DNA of 64,000 nt from assembly GCA_030949405.1 (NCBI GenBank), contig JAUZSN010000002.1, positions 1,302,001 to 1,366,000 on the forward strand. Reading direction: 5' to 3'. Position 1 is the first letter of the stretch; every line of letters begins with the position of its first letter. The translations under genes and the position numbers were made by a program. Positions 38,540 to 49,847 of this stretch are shown in pieces. Source of the stretch: Methylococcales bacterium (lineage in GTDB: Bacteria > Pseudomonadota > Gammaproteobacteria > Methylococcales > Methylomonadaceae). The notes under the pieces are model-generated. The model was not told where the DNA came from. It made no database searches and saw only the letters and a list, made by a program, of their open reading frames with translations.

Positions 38540-39456
38540 ATGAAAATAAAAGAAATTTTACCAAGAATTTATGATGATAGACAGTTAAGAGCTTTAACAG
38601 GATTAAAAACAGAACATTTTATTTTACTATTATCTCTATTTGAAAAGACCCTTATTGAAGATCAAAAAGAAAAACATGAAAATAAAGAAAGAAAATACGG
38701 TAGTGGTTTAGATAGCACATTAAAAACACCCGCAGACAAATTATTATTTATATTAAATTATATGAAGTGCTATTCTACTTTCGATCACTTAGGGTTTTCT
38801 TTTAATATGAATAAATCATGCGCCCATACTCATGTATACAAATTATTTCCAATTTTAATAAAGACGTTAGATATATTTAATGTTTTACCTGCAACAAGTT
38901 TTTCAACCCCTGAAGAAATGCAGCAGGCTTTTGGCGGAGTTCAAACATTGATAATAGATGCTACAGAGCGTGCTGTACAACGCCCTAGTGACTATGAAGA
39001 ACAAAATGAATTTTACAGTGGTAAAAAAAACAGCATACAATTAAAAATACCACTATAGCTTCTTTAGGTCATTTAATTTTATATATTGGGGTTAGTTTTC
39101 CAGGTAAAAATCATGATTATGGAATGTTTAAAAAAGAATTTAATCCAGAATTAAATTGGTTTAGTAATTTTAATATATTTATTGATTTAGGTTATTTGGG
39201 GTTTAATAATGAATATAAAACTAATTCGGTAAATATTCCTCATAAAAAACCAAATAAATCTAAGCATAATCCAAACCCAACATTAACAGAAAATCAAAAA
39301 AAAGAAAACAAAGAGATGAGTCGTGAAAGAGTCATTGTTGAGCATGTAATCGGTGGAATGAAAAGATATAGATGCCTAGTTGACAAGTTTAGAAATAAAA
39401 AAGAAGGTGTAAAAGATTTATTTTCTTTTTTTAGCGGCTATCCTATGGAATTTTAA
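38540..39456 (+). pseudogene. IS5-like transposase, copy 4, C-terminal frameshift
   Basis: The first frame and the A8 shift site are normal, and the second frame opens MFKKEFNPELNWFSNF. An extra T in the T-run near 39431 changes the end from LAAILWNFNMIY to FSGYPMEF, altering the last 12 or so residues. The catalytic residues lie before the change, so loss of activity is probable but not certain. Confidence 0.8.
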
Positions 39457-39765
39457 CATGATATATTAGACTTGTTCTTCTAAATAAAATATATTAAAAT
39501 CAATTGCTTATATATACTTGATAACATTCACAATCAGTTGATACAGCCTAATAAATAAACTTTAAATTAAATTATTAAAAATAATAAATAAGCTTTATAA
39601 TAAATTTCTATAAAAAATAAAAATCAAAGTATAACATGAAAATAAAAGAAATTTTACCAAGAATTTATGATGATAGACAGTTAAGAGCTTTAACAGGATT
39701 AAAAACAGAACATTTTATTTTACTATTATCTCTATTTGAAAAGACCCTTATTGAAGATCAAAAAG

Positions 39766-41470
39766 AGGCTACCAACTTAAGACGGGACAAAATAAAGAAC
39801 TAACTGCGATATTCTTGTATCATAGGTTAATGACTAAAAAAACAGAACAACACAGAAAATACGCGCAGCTAGTCACGCAATTATCGCTGAAATTACAACA
39901 ACAGGCAAGCAAACTGTTCGTAACTTAGCTTCAATTGTTGGTCGCTCAAAAAGCAGTGTGCATCGTCATCGTCAAGCGCAAACAAAGCGAAATCGACATC
40001 CTGAATCATCATTATGGGAAACCGAGGCAGGTAGTTCTTGGCAAAGATTAATGGTGTTTTCCGCCTTGTATGTCTTTGGATTAAAGACAGGCGTAGGTGC
40101 AGAGACTTTATCGCTGTTTTTTAAAATGATACGGATTGACACCCATGTGGGCGTATCACCCGACGCACTGCGGACTCAAATCAATAAAATGGAAGTCTTA
40201 TTGCCGCAGTTTCAGCAAGAATGCGAAAAAAGTGTGAAAAAACAAACACGTAAAGTTGTTGCTGGGCTGGATGAGACTTTTTCGGCAACTTTATGATTTT
40301 AGTTTTAATGGACTTACGTTCTGGCTATCTTTTGTTGGAAGATATTAGCGATGATAAGTGCTACGATACTTGGTATAAAAAGGTTTCGCCACGATTAGAA
40401 TCATTAGGCATTGAGGTTAATCATGCGATTAGTGATCGCGCTAAGGCGTTGATAAAAATGGCAGTGACGGGGTTTAAGTGCGAATCGGGGGCAGATATTT
40501 TTCATGCTCAACAAGATATGAGTCGCTGGTTAGGCGCGAAAATCGGCAGGCGTGCAGCAAGGGCTGAAAAACAGCGGCAAGCAGCGCAAACCGCAGAGTC
40601 TACTGTTTCTAAAACGGCAACGATGCAGAAAATTATTGGACTTAAAACAACACGGATAACGGCTGAAAAAGAGCTTGAAGAAGCCAAAAAAATACAAACA
40701 GATTATCACGAAAACTTACAAGGGATTGCGGATGAAGTTCATCCTTTTTCACTCAATGATAGTCGTAGAAACGATGCGGAACAGGTTGAGAAGTTGCTAG
40801 AGTTAAGAGCGCGAGACTTTGAAAAAATAGCGGAAAAACAAGGGATTAACGATCATAAAGGCGTGATGAAAAAGTTTCGTAATCAAATAAAACCGTTAGC
40901 GGTATCCATCAGTTTTTGGTGGCTTTGGGTACGCGAAACCTTGCAAAATTTGGGGCTTGATGCGGATACCGAATATTGGTTGACCACAACATTATTACCC
41001 GTTGTTTATTGGCATCAGAAAATGGAACAAACTAAAAGCCGCAGGTCAAAGGAAAACTATCGAAAAGCTTGGGAAACCGCGTCTGATAAGCTCAAATCAG
41101 ACCCATTTAGTGCAAAGTTATCAATCAGTGAAATGCAGCGATGGCTAACATTGGCGGAGCATATGGCAAGGCAGTTTCAACGCAGTTCATCTGCGGTGGA
41201 AGGGCGAAATGGCTGTTTATCGCAAATGTATCGCAATGGGCGAGGTTTGAATAAAAAGCGATTAAACGCGTTGACGGTCATTCATAACTACGGAATCAAA
41301 CGTGAGGATGGCACAACCGCCGCCATGCGTTTATTTGATACCGAGTTTCCAGACTTGTTTTCATGGCTACTGAATGAAATGGGCGAGTTACCGCTTCCTA
41401 GAAATAGTCGAAAGCGTGTGTTTTCTAACCCTTTGAAATTGCTGGATGTCCCGTCTTAAATTGGTAGCCC
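39766..41470 (+). mobile_element. DUF6399-type insertion sequence
   Basis: 1705 bp. The left end AGGCTACCAACTTAAGACGG and the inverted right end GGGCTACCAATTTAAGACGG match. The target duplication AAAAAG is at 39760-39765 and 41471-41476; it is present once in the uninterrupted IS copies (GATCAAAAAGAAAAAC). It is the parent type of the MITE-like elements at 17229 and 44735 and of the solo ends at 18683 and 20332. Confidence 0.92.
39830..41459 (+). pseudogene. DUF6399-type transposase with two homopolymer frameshifts
   Basis: ATG at 39830. An A7 run (A8 needed) shifts the frame just after MTKK. The helix-turn-helix region TVRNLASIVGRSKSSVHRHR follows, up to VVAGLDETF. A T5 run near 40277 (T6 needed for DETFFGNFMILVLMDL) shifts again, and the rest is open from 40293 to 41459. 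C-terminal SSAVEGRNGCLSQMYRNGRG is the conserved part of DUF6399 proteins. Corrected length is 543 residues. Either frameshift could instead be programmed, but two in one gene suggests decay or sequence error. Confidence 0.78.
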
Positions 41471-42855
41471 AAAAAGAAAAACATGAAAATAAAGAAAGAA
41501 AATACGGTAGTGGTTTAGATAGCACATTAAAAACACCCGCAGACAAATTATTATTTATATTAAATTATATGAAGTGTTATTCTACTTTCGATCACTTAGG
41601 GTTTTCTTTTAATATGAATAAATCATGCGCTCATACTCATGTATACAAATTATTTCCAATTTTAATAAAGACGTTAGATATATTTAATGTTTTACCTGCA
41701 ACAAGTTTTTCAACCCCTGAAGAAATGCAGCAGGCTTTTGGCGGAGTTCAAACATTGATAATAGATGCTACAGAGCGTGCTGTACAACGCCCTCGTGACT
41801 ATGAAGAACAAAATGAATTTTACAGTGGTAAAAAAAACAGCATACAATTAAAAATACCACTATAGCTTCTTTAGGTCATTTAATTTTATATATTGGGGTT
41901 AGTTTTCCAGGTAAAAATCATGATTATGGAATGTTTAAAAAAGAATTTAATCCAGAATTAAATTGGTTTAGTAATTTTAATATATTTATTGATTTAGGTT
42001 ATTTGGGGTTTAATAATGAATATAAAACTAATTCGGTAAATATTCCTCATAAAAAACCAAATAAATCTAAGCATAATCCAAACCCAACATTAACTGAAAA
42101 ACAAAAAAAAGAAAACAAAGAGATGAGTCGTGAAAGAGTCATTGTTGAGCATGTAATCGGTGGAATGAAAAGATATAGATGTCTAGTTGACAAGTTTAGA
42201 AATAAAAAAGAAGGTGTAAAAGATTTATTTTCTTTTTTAGCGGCTATCCTATGGAATTTTAACATGATATATTAACTTCTTCTTAAAGAACAAGTCTATT
42301 AACTTCTTCTTAAAGAACAAGTCTATTGTTAAAGACCCTTTAGCTAAAGACCAAATTAAGCTGATCCGTGAACATTTAAGTAAAATTTCCAAGAATTTTA
42401 AACAAGGTGATTTTTCTGATCCTAGAAAAATTCATGGTAAAAATATGCCTGGGTTAACAACTTTAGAAGGGGCTAAAAAAGGAGAGCTGTCGATTGATTA
42501 TAAAGAAATTCCAGTGGGTGCAGAAATTTTATATACTTCTGATAATTTAAAACTAGTAGAGGCTATTCATCAATGGTTTGATGCGCAATTAAGCGATCAT
42601 GCTCGTCATGCAACTATGCACCATGATGCCCATCATGACTTAAAAAAAGATAAAGAATTAATTAAGGTTTTACCCAAGGAAATTAAGCAATAGAAATATT
42701 TAGAAAAACTTAACCTTTAAGGTTTGCCAAAAATTAGAGGCATCTTTCATTTCCCAGTTGACACTTTACATAAAAAACTTCAATTGTAGAGAGTGCCTCC
42801 ATAGAACAAAAGCGTTATAGTGTAAACGACAAATATCTCACATAACTCTAGCATC

Positions 42856-43343
42856 ATGATAACAGAAAACCAGATTAACGAATTTTTTCCCCCCTGTAGC
42901 TCCTAAATTTATTCGCCGTCACGATTTAACCCTTGAAGTACGAACAATGCTTATTTTGCAGGCTTATGAAGCACAGGTAAATCACAACTGGGGGGCTATC
43001 TCCGAATTATCTAGGCAATACGACATTTCCAGAACCTTCCTTTATTCCTTGCTCTCTAGGTTTAAAGAGGAAATGGGCAGTCTATTTTTTCCCAGAGAAC
43101 GGCTAGCTTCGCCATCAAAGGAAGCCGCTGAAGCGAATATTCTCGCGCAACGTTTTGAAGGAAAATCCAGTATTGATGCTATCTCTACGCTAATGAAACG
43201 TACCTATCCTCCCCTTTTCTTCTGTGGGGTACATGAGTCAATATTTATCTCGTGTCGGCAAATCGCTCCCCAATACCTTAGTAAACACGTGTGAATCCGA
43301 GCAGTTTCTTGCTTTTGCCGATGATGAGATTTTTGCAAAGTCA
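42856..43343 (+). pseudogene. Remnant of a second transposase related to the DUF6399 group
   Basis: Opens MITENQINEFFPP at 42856. A T/C run shifts the frame, then VAPKFIRRHDLTLEVRTMLI continues through SELSRQYDISRTFLYSLLSR, a helix-turn-helix. A further shift near 43215 precedes SVGYMSQYLSRVGKSLPNTL and FADDEIFAKS. There the similarity ends abruptly and sequence antisense to the P-type ATPase begins. The recombination point is near 43340. Family placement is from remembered motif similarity, so moderate. Confidence 0.6.
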
Positions 43344-44357
43344 GCCGATGGAATAATTTGCACAATTTCTGGAATTTCTTGGGTTAATGTACCTGTTTTA
43401 TCAAAAATAAAAACATCTATTTGATGTAGAAGTTCTAATGCCCGTCCATCTTTCACCAAAATACTTTGATGTGAAAGTACTCGTAAATAATTCAAGACCA
43501 TTAAAGGGGCGGCTAAACGCATCTGATAACCAAAACCTGCATAGCTTAAGGCTAAAGTATGAGACAAACCAATAATAGGCAAACTCAAAGCACTCATCCA
43601 TAAGGTTTTTTCCGCGCCACTTTCAACGATTGCATCGCCTCTTGATTGAATATTGGTTTTAAAATTAACCGTATTTTCTAAGACATCTACAATTTTCCCT
43701 GCAATGGTTTCAGTCCCTTGTTTATTAACCTGAATTTGTAAATAACCTGATAATAAAATGGTGGATGCAAAAACCCCATCAATGGCAATAGTTTCACCTG
43801 CTCGCACAACAATGACATCATTAACTTCTAAGCACTCAAGTGAAACTTCTATTTCAACCGTCTTATCTAATAACCAAACTTTTTTAGGAAAAGAATTAAA
43901 AATATTTTTAAAATCCGTACATACCGTTCGTTCTGTCTGTAAAATTATTTTTTGTATGCTAAAAAATGCCCAGCTACTAAAGGCTGCAACAAAATAATGC
44001 CCTGTGATCAAAATTCCTGTCACACTTAAAAATTCAAATAAAGCCAGAGCAATTTTCTTTTTAGTAAAAAGCGTATGGTGAGTTACTTTAAGAAAATTAA
44101 AATAATTGTAGGTTAATATCGGAATCCCGAGTAAAGCAAAGGGAGCGTAAAAAGTACCCACCCCTATTTAAAGCCAATGCGGTAAACGAAAGCTGTTGAT
44201 AACGTACTAATTTACCTATATTATTGGAGACATCATCCTCTATTGTTTTTAATGCTTGTGTTTGCGGCTTTATTTCTTTTGAAGCGCGTTTATTTTTTAG
44301 CTCTTTCCATGCAGCAAAGGCAAGCCTTGCGATGGCTAATGTTGTTAAAATTGGCAT
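43340..44357 (-). pseudogene. P1B-like P-type ATPase, 3'-truncated and frameshifted
   Basis: The N-terminal piece starts MPILTTLAIARLAFAAWKEL at 44357. An extra base near 44170 shifts the frame, and MGTFYAPFALLGIPILTYNY continues with an actuator region (VRAGETIAIDG) and the phosphorylation motif FDKTGTLTQE, after which the gene is cut at about 43340. The nucleotide-binding domain is missing. Before the DKTGT motif, where heavy-metal ATPases carry CPC, the sequence reads RLAAPLMVLNYLRVL, without cysteines. Metal specificity is unknown; not functional as it stands. Confidence 0.78.
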
Positions 44358-45653: not shown

Positions 45654-46868
45654 ATTAAACAACATATTCTACTTGCCGTCTGTGGCGGCATTGCCGCTTA
45701 TAAGTCAGCAGAAATAGTTCGTTTGTTAGTTAAAAAAGGCCATGCGGTTAAGGTCATTATGACGGATTCAGCGATGGAATTTATTCGGCCTTTAACCTTT
45801 CAGGCATTATCGGGAAACCCTGTGCAAACGCAATTATTGGATACCGAACAAGATAATGCGATGGGGCATATTAATCTAGCACGTTGGGCCGATAAAATTA
45901 TTATTGCACCCGCAACGGCTAACATAATCGCTAAATTAGCCCACGGTTTAGCCGATGATTTAGTCAGCACTTTATGTCTGGCCGCTGAATGCCCTATTTA
46001 TATTGCGCCTTCGATGAATCAGGCTATGTGGCATAAACCTATTACGCAGACAAATATTAACGCATTACAACAACAAGGAATGCAGCTTATTTTTCCTGAA
46101 CAAGGAGAACAAGCGTGTGGCGAAGTGGGTTGGGGACGACTTGCCGAGCCGTTAATAATTTGTCAGTCTGTCATTGAGGACGATATATCAACGGTTAATA
46201 ACAGTTTGAAAGGCGTTCGTTTATTAATTAGTGCAGGGCCTACCCGCGAACCTTTGGATCCTGTTCGTTATTTGACGAATCGCAGCTCAGGAAAAATGGG
46301 GTATGCACTAGCAGAAGCGGGACTATGGGCGGGCGCATCAGTTAGTTTAGTCAGCGGTGTGGTTAATTTGACCGCGCCTTCTGAGGTTAATTTAACGGTC
46401 GTTGAAACCGCAGACGAGATGTTTCAAGCGGTTATGTCAAAAGCGACCTCACACGATATTTATATTGGTTCGGCGGCGGTTGCCGATTATACGCCTGTTC
46501 AAATGTCCTCTCAAAAAATAAAAAAACAAAAGCAAGAAATGATCCTAAGCTTGCAAAAAACGAAAGATATTTTAGCGGAAGTGGCTTTATTAGCGAAGCG
46601 ACCTTTTGTTGTAGGCTTTGCCGCTGAAACAGATCATCTTGAAACCTATGCGCGTGATAAACTGCAATGCAAAAACTTGGACATGATTGCGGCGAATTGG
46701 GTGGGGCGTGAACAGGGTGGATTTGAAAACAATGAGAATGCGTTACAGGTTTTTTGGCATAATGGTCACAAAAATTTCCCCCTAATAAATAAAAAGCATC
46801 TAGCGAAGCAATTAATCGCTTTGATCGCTGAGATAAGAAATGAAAACAATACAATTAAAAATACTTGA
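45654..46868 (+). CDS. coaBC: Bifunctional phosphopantothenoylcysteine decarboxylase/synthetase, probable AUU start
   Basis: 404 residues if started at ATT 45654. CoaBC makes 4'-phosphopantetheine from 4'-phosphopantothenate and Cys for coenzyme A. The flavin-binding N-terminus [20 protein letters not shown] must be included, yet no ATG, GTG or TTG lies between the in-frame TAA (45636-45638) and that motif; ATT 45651 or 45654 follows AAAGGGG by 4-7 nt. Downstream landmarks are intact: PSMNQAMW (decarboxylase) and [20 protein letters not shown] (synthetase). An out-of-frame ATG at 45631 suggests a frameshift as the alternative. Confidence 0.88.
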
Positions 46869-47295
46869 TAAACGCTTAGGCCATGAAATCCCCTTACCTA
46901 ATTATGCAACAACAGGGTCAGCGGGGTTAGATTTACGCGCCTGTATAGAGACAGCGACCACGTTATTACCTGGCGATACCCTTTTAATTCCAACAGGATT
47001 AGCCATTCATATTAATAACCCCCACTTAGCGGCCATGCTATTACCTCGCTCAGGTTTAGGTCATAAGCACGGTATTGTGCTGGGGAATTTGGTGGGACTC
47101 ATTGATTCCGATTACCAAGGTCAAGTTTTTGTTTCTTGCTGGAATAGAGGAAGCAGTGAATTTGAGATTAATATCGGTGAACGAATCGCACAAATGGTGT
47201 TTGTTCCTGTTGAACAAGTTGAATTTGAACGCGTTGATGAATTTAATCAAAGTTTGCGGGGTGCGGGTGGTTTTGGTCATACCGGTCGTGATTAA
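46840..47295 (+). CDS. dut: dUTP diphosphatase
   Basis: 151 residues. It hydrolyses dUTP to dUMP and pyrophosphate. The five trimeric dUTPase motifs are present: [40 protein letters not shown] and the C-terminal [12 protein letters not shown]. It overlaps the end of coaBC by 29 bp, and algC follows 23 bp downstream, the standard coaBC-dut-algC order. Confidence 0.96.
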
Positions 47296-47318: not shown

Positions 47319-49847
47319 ATGGCTCGAATTTTTGGAATAGCGGCTGCCTTTACGATTGCTATGATTGTACTGAGTAGTTTAGGTGTTTTTTGGGTCTCCA
47401 CAATAACATCGGAGGCTAAAGAAGAGTCCAAACAAGAATTGACAAATTCTGCGATTAAAGTGCTTGCTTATACGGTTTATTCACAAGTTAAACTGCTTGA
47501 AAAACAGGTTGCGCAATTAGCAACTGACCGCGATGTTATTGCCGCAACTGAAAGTGCCGATCGAGTCCTACTTGAAAATATTGCCTATAAATTTCAAACA
47601 CAATTACCTTACGCGCTCAAAGTTAGAATCTGTTTGCTTGGAATTGATCGAATTGATGAAACCGCAAAACCTTATATGGGGCAAGCAGATTTATTTTTAG
47701 TCCAAAAAACATTTGAAAGTAAACAACTGTCTGCGGTACAAGGGCAAGGTATTAATCGGCATTTTGCAATTACGGCAGCAATAAAAAGAGATAATCAGAT
47801 TATTGGGGTTATTTTAGCAAGTTTAGATGTCAATTTTCTTCGGCGGTTATTTAAAAATTCCCCGATAGAAAATAACTTTGTTATGTTAAAACAACGCGAT
47901 ATGACCGTAGCAAAAATAGGGGATGTTTCGATGAAAAATAAATCGTTTCATGTCTTAAAAATTCCTGATACCCGCTGGCAACTTGATTATTGGCCCTATC
48001 AAACGAATCAAGCAGGTCAAAGCGTCGTTGTTAAGAAAAGTAGCCTTCCTCGTTATGAGTTATTAACCGTGATTATAATCGGGGTTAGTTTACTGACCTG
48101 CCTTATCTATTTTTTTGGTTATTATCAAGTACGAGGATTATTACGGCAAGATCAAAAAAAATTAATTTATGCGATTAAAGATTTAAGAGCGGGGAAAGAT
48201 GTCAGTCATTATTCAATGCACTTAATTGAAATGAAAGTTATTATCGCGACACTGGCAAAATTTAAACGTTCTCATAAAAAACAACTTAAACGTAAAAATC
48301 CTCCCCCTCCAACGATCGCACCGACAAAAGAAAAATTATCGCCACCGCTCCCAAAATCCATAGCGCAGTCTAAAGAAGAACCCAATCCTGAGCCGTTACT
48401 TGAGGCAGAGTCAAAAAAATCATTAAAAACCACTATAAATCCGACTATTCCAGACAAGATAGCCCCCCCATATCTGGAAGAAACTATTTTTAAAGTTTAT
48501 GGTATTCAAGGGATTGCAGGCAAAAATTTATCGAAAACCAAAGTTTATGAAATTGGTTTAGCCATTGGTTCCGAGGTGAAAAATAAAGGACGACGGATGG
48601 TTGTCGTTGCTAAAGATGGTCGGCTTTCAAGTGATGATTTAATTGAGAGTTTGGTTAAAGGACTTATTTCTACAGGCTGTAATGTTTTAGATTTAGGGCA
48701 AATACCTACCCCGTTATTGTATTTTATTACGCATCATGTCGGAGGACGCTCGGGTGTGATGATTACAGGGGGTCACCTTGCCTCTGAATATAACGGTTTA
48801 AAGGTGGTTATTAATGGTGAAATTTTAGCAGGCGAAAAGATTCAGCAGCTTCGACAACGTATTGAAGATGAACGTTATATTACCGGGTCATTAGGCACTG
48901 TGGAAAAAAATGATTCGTACGGTGAAGAGTACATCGGAACCATTTGTGATGATATCGAACTTAAAAGAAATTTAAAGGTAATTGTCGATTGTGGTAATGG
49001 AATTGTGGGTAAAATTATTTCTGAATTACTGGAAAACTTAGGGTGCGATGTAACCTTGCTCTATAATCAGGTAGATGGTCACTTTCCAAATCATCTTCCC
49101 GACCCAACCAACCCTGAAAATTTTAAAGAACTGATTAACAAGGTTAAAAATGATAAAGCCGATGTCGGTTTGTCTTTTGATGGCGATGGAAACCGTTTAG
49201 GGGTTGTTGATAGTCAAGGAAAAATCATCTGGACAGACCGACAAATGATGTTATTTTCTAAACAAATTTTAGGTAAACAAGTAGGCGCTGAAATTATTTA
49301 TGACATCAAATGTTCACAGCATTTAGGGGAATATATTAAAAAACAAGGAGGTCGCCCTATCATGTGGAAAGCAGGCCATTCTTTTTTAAAAGAAAAGATG
49401 CAAGAAAAAAGCGCGGTACTTATAGGGGGGATGTCAGGAAATATAGCGTTTAATGATCGCTGGTTTGGATTTGATGACGCGCTTTATTCAGCCGCTCGAC
49501 TGTTAGAAATATTAGCCGCCGATAAACGTTCATCCCATGAAGTTTTTGCAGAATTACCTGATAGTATTAACACCGCTGAAATATTAATTGAGATTGCAGA
49601 AAATGAAAAATTTCCTTTTATAGCTGAGTTTATAAAAAGAGCCGACTTTCCTGATGCGACACTGATTGATATCGATGGTTTACGGATAGAGTTTGATGAT
49701 GGATGGGCATTAGTACGGGCATCGAATAGCAGCTCGTCAATTATGCTGCGATTTGAAGCCGATAATCAAGAGGCTCTGTTAAAAATACAACAACGAATTA
49801 AGCAATTAATGAGCGAAATTAATCAAGGAATTAAAATTCCTTTTTAG
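47319..49847 (+). CDS. Membrane-anchored AlgC-like phosphohexomutase homologue with degenerate active site
   Basis: 842 residues. TM1 is about 5-28, a periplasmic sensor-like region 30-240, TM2 about 245-267, a Pro/Lys-rich linker 325-385, and an alpha-D-phosphohexomutase fold 388-842. Position after coaBC-dut and overall similarity identify it as AlgC (phosphomannomutase/phosphoglucomutase). Key residues differ: the YDIRG motif is Y394-G-I-Q-G, the phosphoserine loop TGSHNP is TGGHLA (G485 at the Ser), the metal loop DGDGDR is DGDGNR (N625), and GEMSGH is GGMSGN (G704, N708). The frame is intact, so this looks like a pseudoenzyme rather than a pseudogene. AAGGA precedes the ATG. Confidence 0.82.
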   Translation: MARIFGIAAAFTIAMIVLSSLGVFWVSTITSEAKEESKQELTNSAIKVLAYTVYSQVKLLEKQVAQLATDRDVIAATESADRVLLENIAYKFQTQLPYALKVRICLLGIDRIDETAKPYMGQADLFLVQKTFESKQLSAVQGQGINRHFAITAAIKRDNQIIGVILASLDVNFLRRLFKNSPIENNFVMLKQRDMTVAKIGDVSMKNKSFHVLKIPDTRWQLDYWPYQTNQAGQSVVVKKSSLPRYELLTVIIIGVSLLTCLIYFFGYYQVRGLLRQDQKKLIYAIKDLRAGKDVSHYSMHLIEMKVIIATLAKFKRSHKKQLKRKNPPPPTIAPTKEKLSPPLPKSIAQSKEEPNPEPLLEAESKKSLKTTINPTIPDKIAPPYLEETIFKVYGIQGIAGKNLSKTKVYEIGLAIGSEVKNKGRRMVVVAKDGRLSSDDLIESLVKGLISTGCNVLDLGQIPTPLLYFITHHVGGRSGVMITGGHLASEYNGLKVVINGEILAGEKIQQLRQRIEDERYITGSLGTVEKNDSYGEEYIGTICDDIELKRNLKVIVDCGNGIVGKIISELLENLGCDVTLLYNQVDGHFPNHLPDPTNPENFKELINKVKNDKADVGLSFDGDGNRLGVVDSQGKIIWTDRQMMLFSKQILGKQVGAEIIYDIKCSQHLGEYIKKQGGRPIMWKAGHSFLKEKMQEKSAVLIGGMSGNIAFNDRWFGFDDALYSAARLLEILAADKRSSHEVFAELPDSINTAEILIEIAENEKFPFIAEFIKRADFPDATLIDIDGLRIEFDDGWALVRASNSSSSIMLRFEADNQEALLKIQQRIKQLMSEINQGIKIPF

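Follow-up and report, generated by a model that had tools for sequence, protein, structure and literature searches.

By homology, AlgC-type enzymes are assigned the phosphomannomutase/phosphoglucomutase (PMM/PGM) step in the supply of sugars for exopolysaccharide and LPS. Mutase folds can bind sugars with little or no turnover: the S108C variant of AlgC has limited turnover, binds G6P with a KD of 20 uM and shows a global response to phosphosugars (PMC5509744), and PGM5, a conserved non-catalytic member of the alpha-D-phosphohexomutases that is treated as a structural protein, is inactive and binds substrate (PMC7761743). These two precedents make binding without turnover plausible. In Firmicutes, GlmM inhibits CdaA/DacA, a case of a phosphohexomutase fold acting on a membrane enzyme by contact (PMC8573169, PMC6368335), and action of a mutase fold by contact is plausible on this basis. 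A literature search of open-licence papers found neither a bacterial pseudoenzyme of the phosphohexomutase superfamily nor a Cache-AlgC.

The algC locus and its Cache-AlgC product

The window, which is the whole stretch of 64,000 nucleotides that was analysed, contains a single uninterrupted frame of 842 codons at 47319-49847 on the forward strand, encoding a product of 842 aa. The preliminary description had reported an AlgC homologue in the normal algC position with all codons open, and both statements were borne out. The ORF is the positional AlgC orthologue in the gene order radC-coaBC-dut-algC, which is kept in nearly all relatives; the order dut-algC is also that of Pseudomonas. The neighbouring genes and the parts of the product are as follows.

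45723..46868, forward strand: coaBC, conserved 5' neighbour, which served as rate control; start codon unrefined
46840..47295, forward strand: dut, conserved 5' neighbour
47319..48278, forward strand: N-terminal sensor module, residues 1-320 (AF2 model, Foldseek, Pfam)
48279..48476, forward strand: low-confidence linker, residues 321-386 (pLDDT below 50 at 321-341 and 346-386)
48477..49844, forward strand: phosphohexomutase-fold domain, residues 387-842, catalytically degenerate (Pfam, AF2 and TM-score)

On the 3' side of algC, the window and the two closest congeners have a crp-like gene; in the complete Methylomonas LW13 record the gene there is argB-like, as identified from its translation. 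In the degenerate congeners L035 and L036, dut was not found between coaBC and algC, unlike in the window. A promoter scan scored no better than shuffles, and a phage origin of the ORF was rejected as there was no phage match. Elsewhere in the window, two near-identical split transposase-like gene pairs surround a different transposase-like ORF (38540-42275, with the central ORF at 39958-41459). Adjoining insertion elements, a P-type ATPase-like ORF on the reverse strand (43238-44161) is apparently truncated soon after its DKTGT motif.

AF2 modelling on an alignment of 39 relatives gave a mean pLDDT of 84.7, and of about 93 over the mutase domain, with the linker predicted to be disordered. 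All four PGM_PMM domains (I-IV) scored above the Pfam cut-off in residues 387-842, and the mutase part of the model matched P. aeruginosa PMM/PGM (1pcj) in Foldseek with a target-normalised TM-score of 0.96. The four-domain PMM/PGM fold is predicted to be intact despite the catalytic loss described below. The N-terminal module consists of a TM helix, a periplasmic Cache-type domain (about residues 35-235), a second TM helix and a cytosolic coil (245-290 and 303-322). When residues 1-330 were modelled separately (pLDDT 87.7), the best Foldseek match was the KinD Cache sensor (4jgo, E 3.8e-7), followed by Tlp3, DctB and other receptors. Pfam dCache_1 was below its cut-off in the window protein (E 8e-5) and was matched in 22 of the 39 relatives. 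The membrane part is predicted from these models to be a Cache-type sensor module between TM helices, and a fold of this kind helps a sensory or scaffold interpretation. The membrane anchor and periplasmic region described earlier are recovered in these TM helices and the Cache domain. They are no peculiarity of the degenerate copy, since canonical orthologues align over their full length, N-terminal module included. The module and the mutase domain occupy two overlapping or adjacent ORFs in L016, L095 and L096, which may reflect either gene splitting or MAG frameshifts. Five Methyloglobulus-like loci (L058, L061, L063, L064 and L101) have a stand-alone Cache module of about 313-325 aa, placed after dut and before the full Cache-AlgC gene.

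Catalytic residues lost and kept

The best solved relative of the window protein is P. aeruginosa AlgC (PDB 2h4l, E 2e-144, about 47% identity). Alignment of the two revealed the substitutions D18G, R20Q, S108G, N110L, D246N, E325G and H329N, in AlgC numbering. They fall in the following motifs, listed with the retained phosphate-binding loop; all were located by alignment.

48498..48512, forward strand: YGIQG replacing YDIRG (D18G, R20Q; residues 394-398)
48765..48782, forward strand: TGGHLA replacing TGSHNP, with loss of the phosphoserine (S108G, residue 485)
49179..49196, forward strand: DGDGNR replacing the DGDGDR metal loop (D246N, residue 625), common to both degenerate congeners
49425..49442, forward strand: GGMSGN replacing the GEMSGH sugar loop (E325G and H329N, residues 704 and 708), common to both degenerate congeners
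49716..49736, forward strand: phosphate-binding loop RASNSSS, with R800, S802 and N803 retained

The motif letters and the residue numbers given in the preliminary description (394-398, G485, N625, G704 and N708) agree with the translation and the alignment. Its claim of a change at each key site was too broad: the four motif changes stand, but K495, R626, K664, H687, S706 and R800-S802-N803 remain. In AlgC numbering, K118, D242, D244, R247, K285, H308, S327, R421, S423 and N424 are kept. The catalytic phosphoserine, the three-aspartate metal loop and the GEMSGH sugar-binding loop, all hallmarks of AlgC, are absent, and the score against the NCBIfam equivalog PgmG (NF046027) is 433 bits, under the 600-bit cut-off. 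Judged from the known mechanism, the protein should not work as a phosphomannomutase/phosphoglucomutase, because it lacks the phosphoserine, one of the metal aspartates, the Glu that binds the sugar and two catalytic side chains.

The distribution of the losses was assessed over 121 invariant columns, defined by agreement of at least 97% among 82 canonical orthologues. Twenty of these are lost in the window protein, 12 of the 39 in active-site loops and 8 of the 82 elsewhere (Fisher p = 0.007), compared to 0-6 losses in canonical proteins under leave-one-out. The same active-site-loop bias was found in the congeners L006 (p = 0.006) and L007 (p = 0.012); in the other degenerate lineages it fell short of significance.

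An altered enzyme could still be active, with a different or slow phosphotransfer that perhaps uses the metal-loop Asn and another acceptor group. D242, D244, R247, K118, H308 and the phosphate loop are indeed retained in the window protein. P. aeruginosa PMM/PGM did not lose activity completely when the His that is the alternative catalytic acid was mutated (PMC7761743), and in a related family the main reaction is another one, synthesis of Glc-1,6-BP (PMC9426568). We nonetheless regard this explanation as unlikely: Ser108, R20, E325 and H329 are all gone together, the congener L007 is also without D244, and the R20 position varies freely (Q, H or C) among the three degenerate congeners, unlike a position in a new catalytic site.

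Age, selection and recurrence of the loss of catalytic residues

The substitutions D246N, E325G and H329N are common to two congeners from separate assemblies, L006/L035 and L007/L036 (about 59% identity). Each congener has further losses of its own, R20H or R20C, with S108G in one and D244A in the other (L007). The codons for N625 and G704 differ synonymously among the three species while the residue is the same. Of the other members, the third congener (L016) has the canonical residues, L031 is degenerate in part (Y17E, D244N), and L095 of the same clade has S108G. Farther relatives of the window protein have the canonical residues. The preliminary description had allowed that canonical relatives might expose this copy as merely a recent decaying allele, and this does not hold once the losses shared by the congeners are considered. 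The degenerate state is old, because two congeners have the same D246N, E325G and H329N.

To measure constraint, pairwise dN (NG86) was calculated among the three degenerate congeners with coaBC as the rate control. The mutase domain had a dN of 0.12-0.17, coaBC of 0.13-0.17 and the N-terminal module of 0.32-0.44; with the ML fits included, the range for the mutase domain was 0.11-0.17, equal to that of coaBC. These values bear on whether the Cache module alone is under selection, with the dead mutase domain carried along as a passenger or as a folding or anchoring tail. The module is found in canonical and degenerate members alike, and stands alone just 5' of the full gene in the five Methyloglobulus-like loci. 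In the window clade, however, the dN of the mutase domain is far under that of the N-terminal module. Because conservation is higher in the mutase domain, we rejected Cache-only selection as the main reading and give it rather little weight.

The mutase domain is 73-80% identical across the three degenerate species, with synonymous sites saturated. Only dN was used for these congener pairs, because a saturated dS leaves omega unusable; pairwise Goldman-Yang ML fits gave a very low omega at this saturated dS, and omega = 1 was rejected (2dlnL 384-424). Unsaturated degenerate pairs elsewhere had an omega of 0.116 (L173-L174, dS 0.30) and 0.144 (L177-L178, dS 0.36). Degenerate pairs (0.06-0.14) tend to be higher than canonical pairs (0.025-0.078). 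Constraint on the dead domain is a little relaxed but still strong, because its omega lies above that of canonical pairs but far below 1. The comparison of dN/dS across relatives with the same changes, which had been proposed as a check, therefore revealed purifying selection on the dead mutase domain.

We surveyed 251 genomes of the order at a match threshold of E <= 1e-60, and 153 had an AlgC match. The scored set, which covers most matches, comprised 143 distinct orthologues in which ten core catalytic residues could be read. All ten residues were kept in 116 of the 143; at least one was lost in 27 and at least two in 22. On a FastTree tree built without the active-site loops, the degenerate state needs at least 8 changes, 6 of them forced by well supported branches, a number that is uncertain because FastTree joins long branches. 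When only nine degenerate rows were known, a slower tree of 79 rows had required 5 changes. The degenerate groups are the window clade, a Methylomonas subclade of nine, and eight of ten orthologues in a genus of another family (f6 g25), with further degenerate rows at L181/L244, L245, L230 and L040. On this evidence, catalytic residues have been lost repeatedly in Methylococcales Cache-AlgC. A possible further catalytic variant in L090 (Methylomicrobium sp. RS1) and L239, whose metal loop is one DG repeat short (AFDGDR for AFDGDGDR) with the other motifs canonical, was excluded from the 27. Several near-complete genomes (G012, G016, G017, G024 and others) yielded no AlgC orthologue, and G024 has an L004-type PMM (see below); because such genomes exist, AlgC is dispensable in some lineages.

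The survey also bears on slow decay, in which a protein made redundant as a catalyst, and without function, is on its way to being lost. Degeneration is advanced in some members (L166, L171), the omega of degenerate pairs is raised, and many genomes of the order are without an AlgC match at E 1e-60. Against this, nearly all degenerate orthologues have full-length frames, the window-clade losses cluster in catalytic loops rather than being scattered, and the mutase domain has kept its identity across three species while synonymous sites saturated. Decay is largely refuted by the omega tests, with omega well below 1 and large likelihood differences, and we consider it improbable. A sequencing or assembly artefact is refuted, even though some relatives are MAGs, as three independent assemblies agree on these residues, and degenerate states of independent origin are found in genomes that are cultured, closed or near-closed (L079 of Methylomonas lenta, L080; G180, G181, G204 and G130, on 1-2 contigs); its probability is negligible.

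A probable pseudomutase compared with known systems

Four PGM_PMM_I proteins are encoded in the genome of the window: GlmM (L001), PGM (L002), the window protein and L004. L001 and L002 score above the GlmM equivalog and PGM cut-offs, respectively, and the motifs of both are intact. L004 (497 aa) is closest in the PDB to 4hjh, a Brucella phosphohexomutase listed as phosphomannomutase (E 6e-119), and its translation contains FGTSGVRG, TGSHIP, DGDGDR, EANGG and RPSGNAPELR. A homology search of the same genome found no second AlgC copy. The separate active AlgC anticipated earlier is thus absent as a paralogue, and the genome has instead three other proteins with canonical motifs, the PMM-like L004, PGM L002 and GlmM L001. 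Also encoded is a GMP/PMI enzyme from a pathway that depends on mannose-1-P, so mannose-1-P is presumably required; we infer that L004 supplies it.

The L004 family, defined as the L004 type plus longer relatives (open frames of about 570-900 aa), is present in 26 of 27 degenerate compared to 50 of 102 canonical genomes (Fisher 2e-6), which are phylogenetically non-independent. The L004 type alone was found in 15/27 and 37/102, respectively (p = 0.08). Matched independent pairs, 2-3 for the association and 0-1 against, point in the same direction and are too few to be significant. In the window clade of eight, some of which are incomplete MAGs, L004 occurs in 5/5 degenerate and 0/3 canonical members.

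Collectively, these results make it fairly probable that the window protein is a Cache-AlgC chimera that was retained once its catalysis had become redundant, and that it now serves, anchored in the membrane, as a pseudomutase that senses sugar phosphates or acts as a scaffold. It is the vertically inherited AlgC orthologue of this methanotroph, located in the inner membrane, with a periplasmic Cache sensor, a flexible linker and a cytosolic phosphohexomutase fold. An L004-family PMM may have taken over the reaction, while AlgC would have retained a second, non-catalytic job for which purifying selection holds the fold. The likeliest job would be non-catalytic binding of sugar phosphates or partner enzymes at the membrane, by which the protein would serve cell-surface sugar synthesis as a scaffold or sensor; the Cache domain would perhaps add an external signal. 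The sensory or scaffold pseudoenzyme suggested in the preliminary description gains support from the changes common to two congeners, purifying selection, the predicted intact fold and the recurrence in several lineages, and the phenomenon reaches further than that description had covered. The pseudomutase reading is weakened in that the L004 association is tied to ancestry, many genomes carry both L004 and a canonical AlgC, and no L004-family gene was found in the genome of the degenerate L040. Because the linker is predicted to be disordered, tethering is likelier than rigid signal transfer. Residues that bind the sugar phosphate are intact in the window clade and partly lost in the degenerate L034, L079 and L166, so the degenerate lineages may not have one ligand in common.

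A wider proposal is that Methylococcales Cache-AlgC has been converted several times to a receptor or scaffold, in which the dead phosphohexomutase reads sugar-phosphate levels or docks partner enzymes; we put this forward tentatively, as a possibility with the balance somewhat against it. If it were true, the ancestral active Cache-AlgC would already have been signalling besides catalysing. That catalysis was repeatedly lost and the protein retained suggests a second role for Cache-anchored AlgC in active members too, which is testable in culturable Methylomonas strains. In this one order, roughly one in five of the distinct orthologues surveyed is without residues required by the PMM/PGM step; pathway annotations there are therefore probably in error, and a different PMM probably carries out the actual step.

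P. aeruginosa AlgC, the best PDB match, has the same four-domain fold; Ser108, R20, D246, E325 and H329 are replaced in the window protein, and the PDB constructs contain the mutase part only. The closest precedent is vertebrate PGM5/aciculin, a non-catalytic member of the same superfamily. PGM5 retains the serine and the metal site, still binds substrate and has an active paralogue in PGM1, whereas the window protein has lost residues, is an orthologue and is fused to a membrane sensor. In the GlmM-CdaA and GlmM-DacA complexes (7olh, 9g69) a mutase fold contacts a membrane enzyme, but that GlmM is soluble and active. The Cache sensor kinases and chemoreceptors KinD, DctB and Tlp3 share with the window protein the extracytoplasmic Cache fold and the two TM helices that flank it, with a kinase or MCP domain as output where the window protein has a dead mutase fold. 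Phosphohexomutase pseudoenzymes are already known, and a recurrent form fused to a membrane sensor is new.
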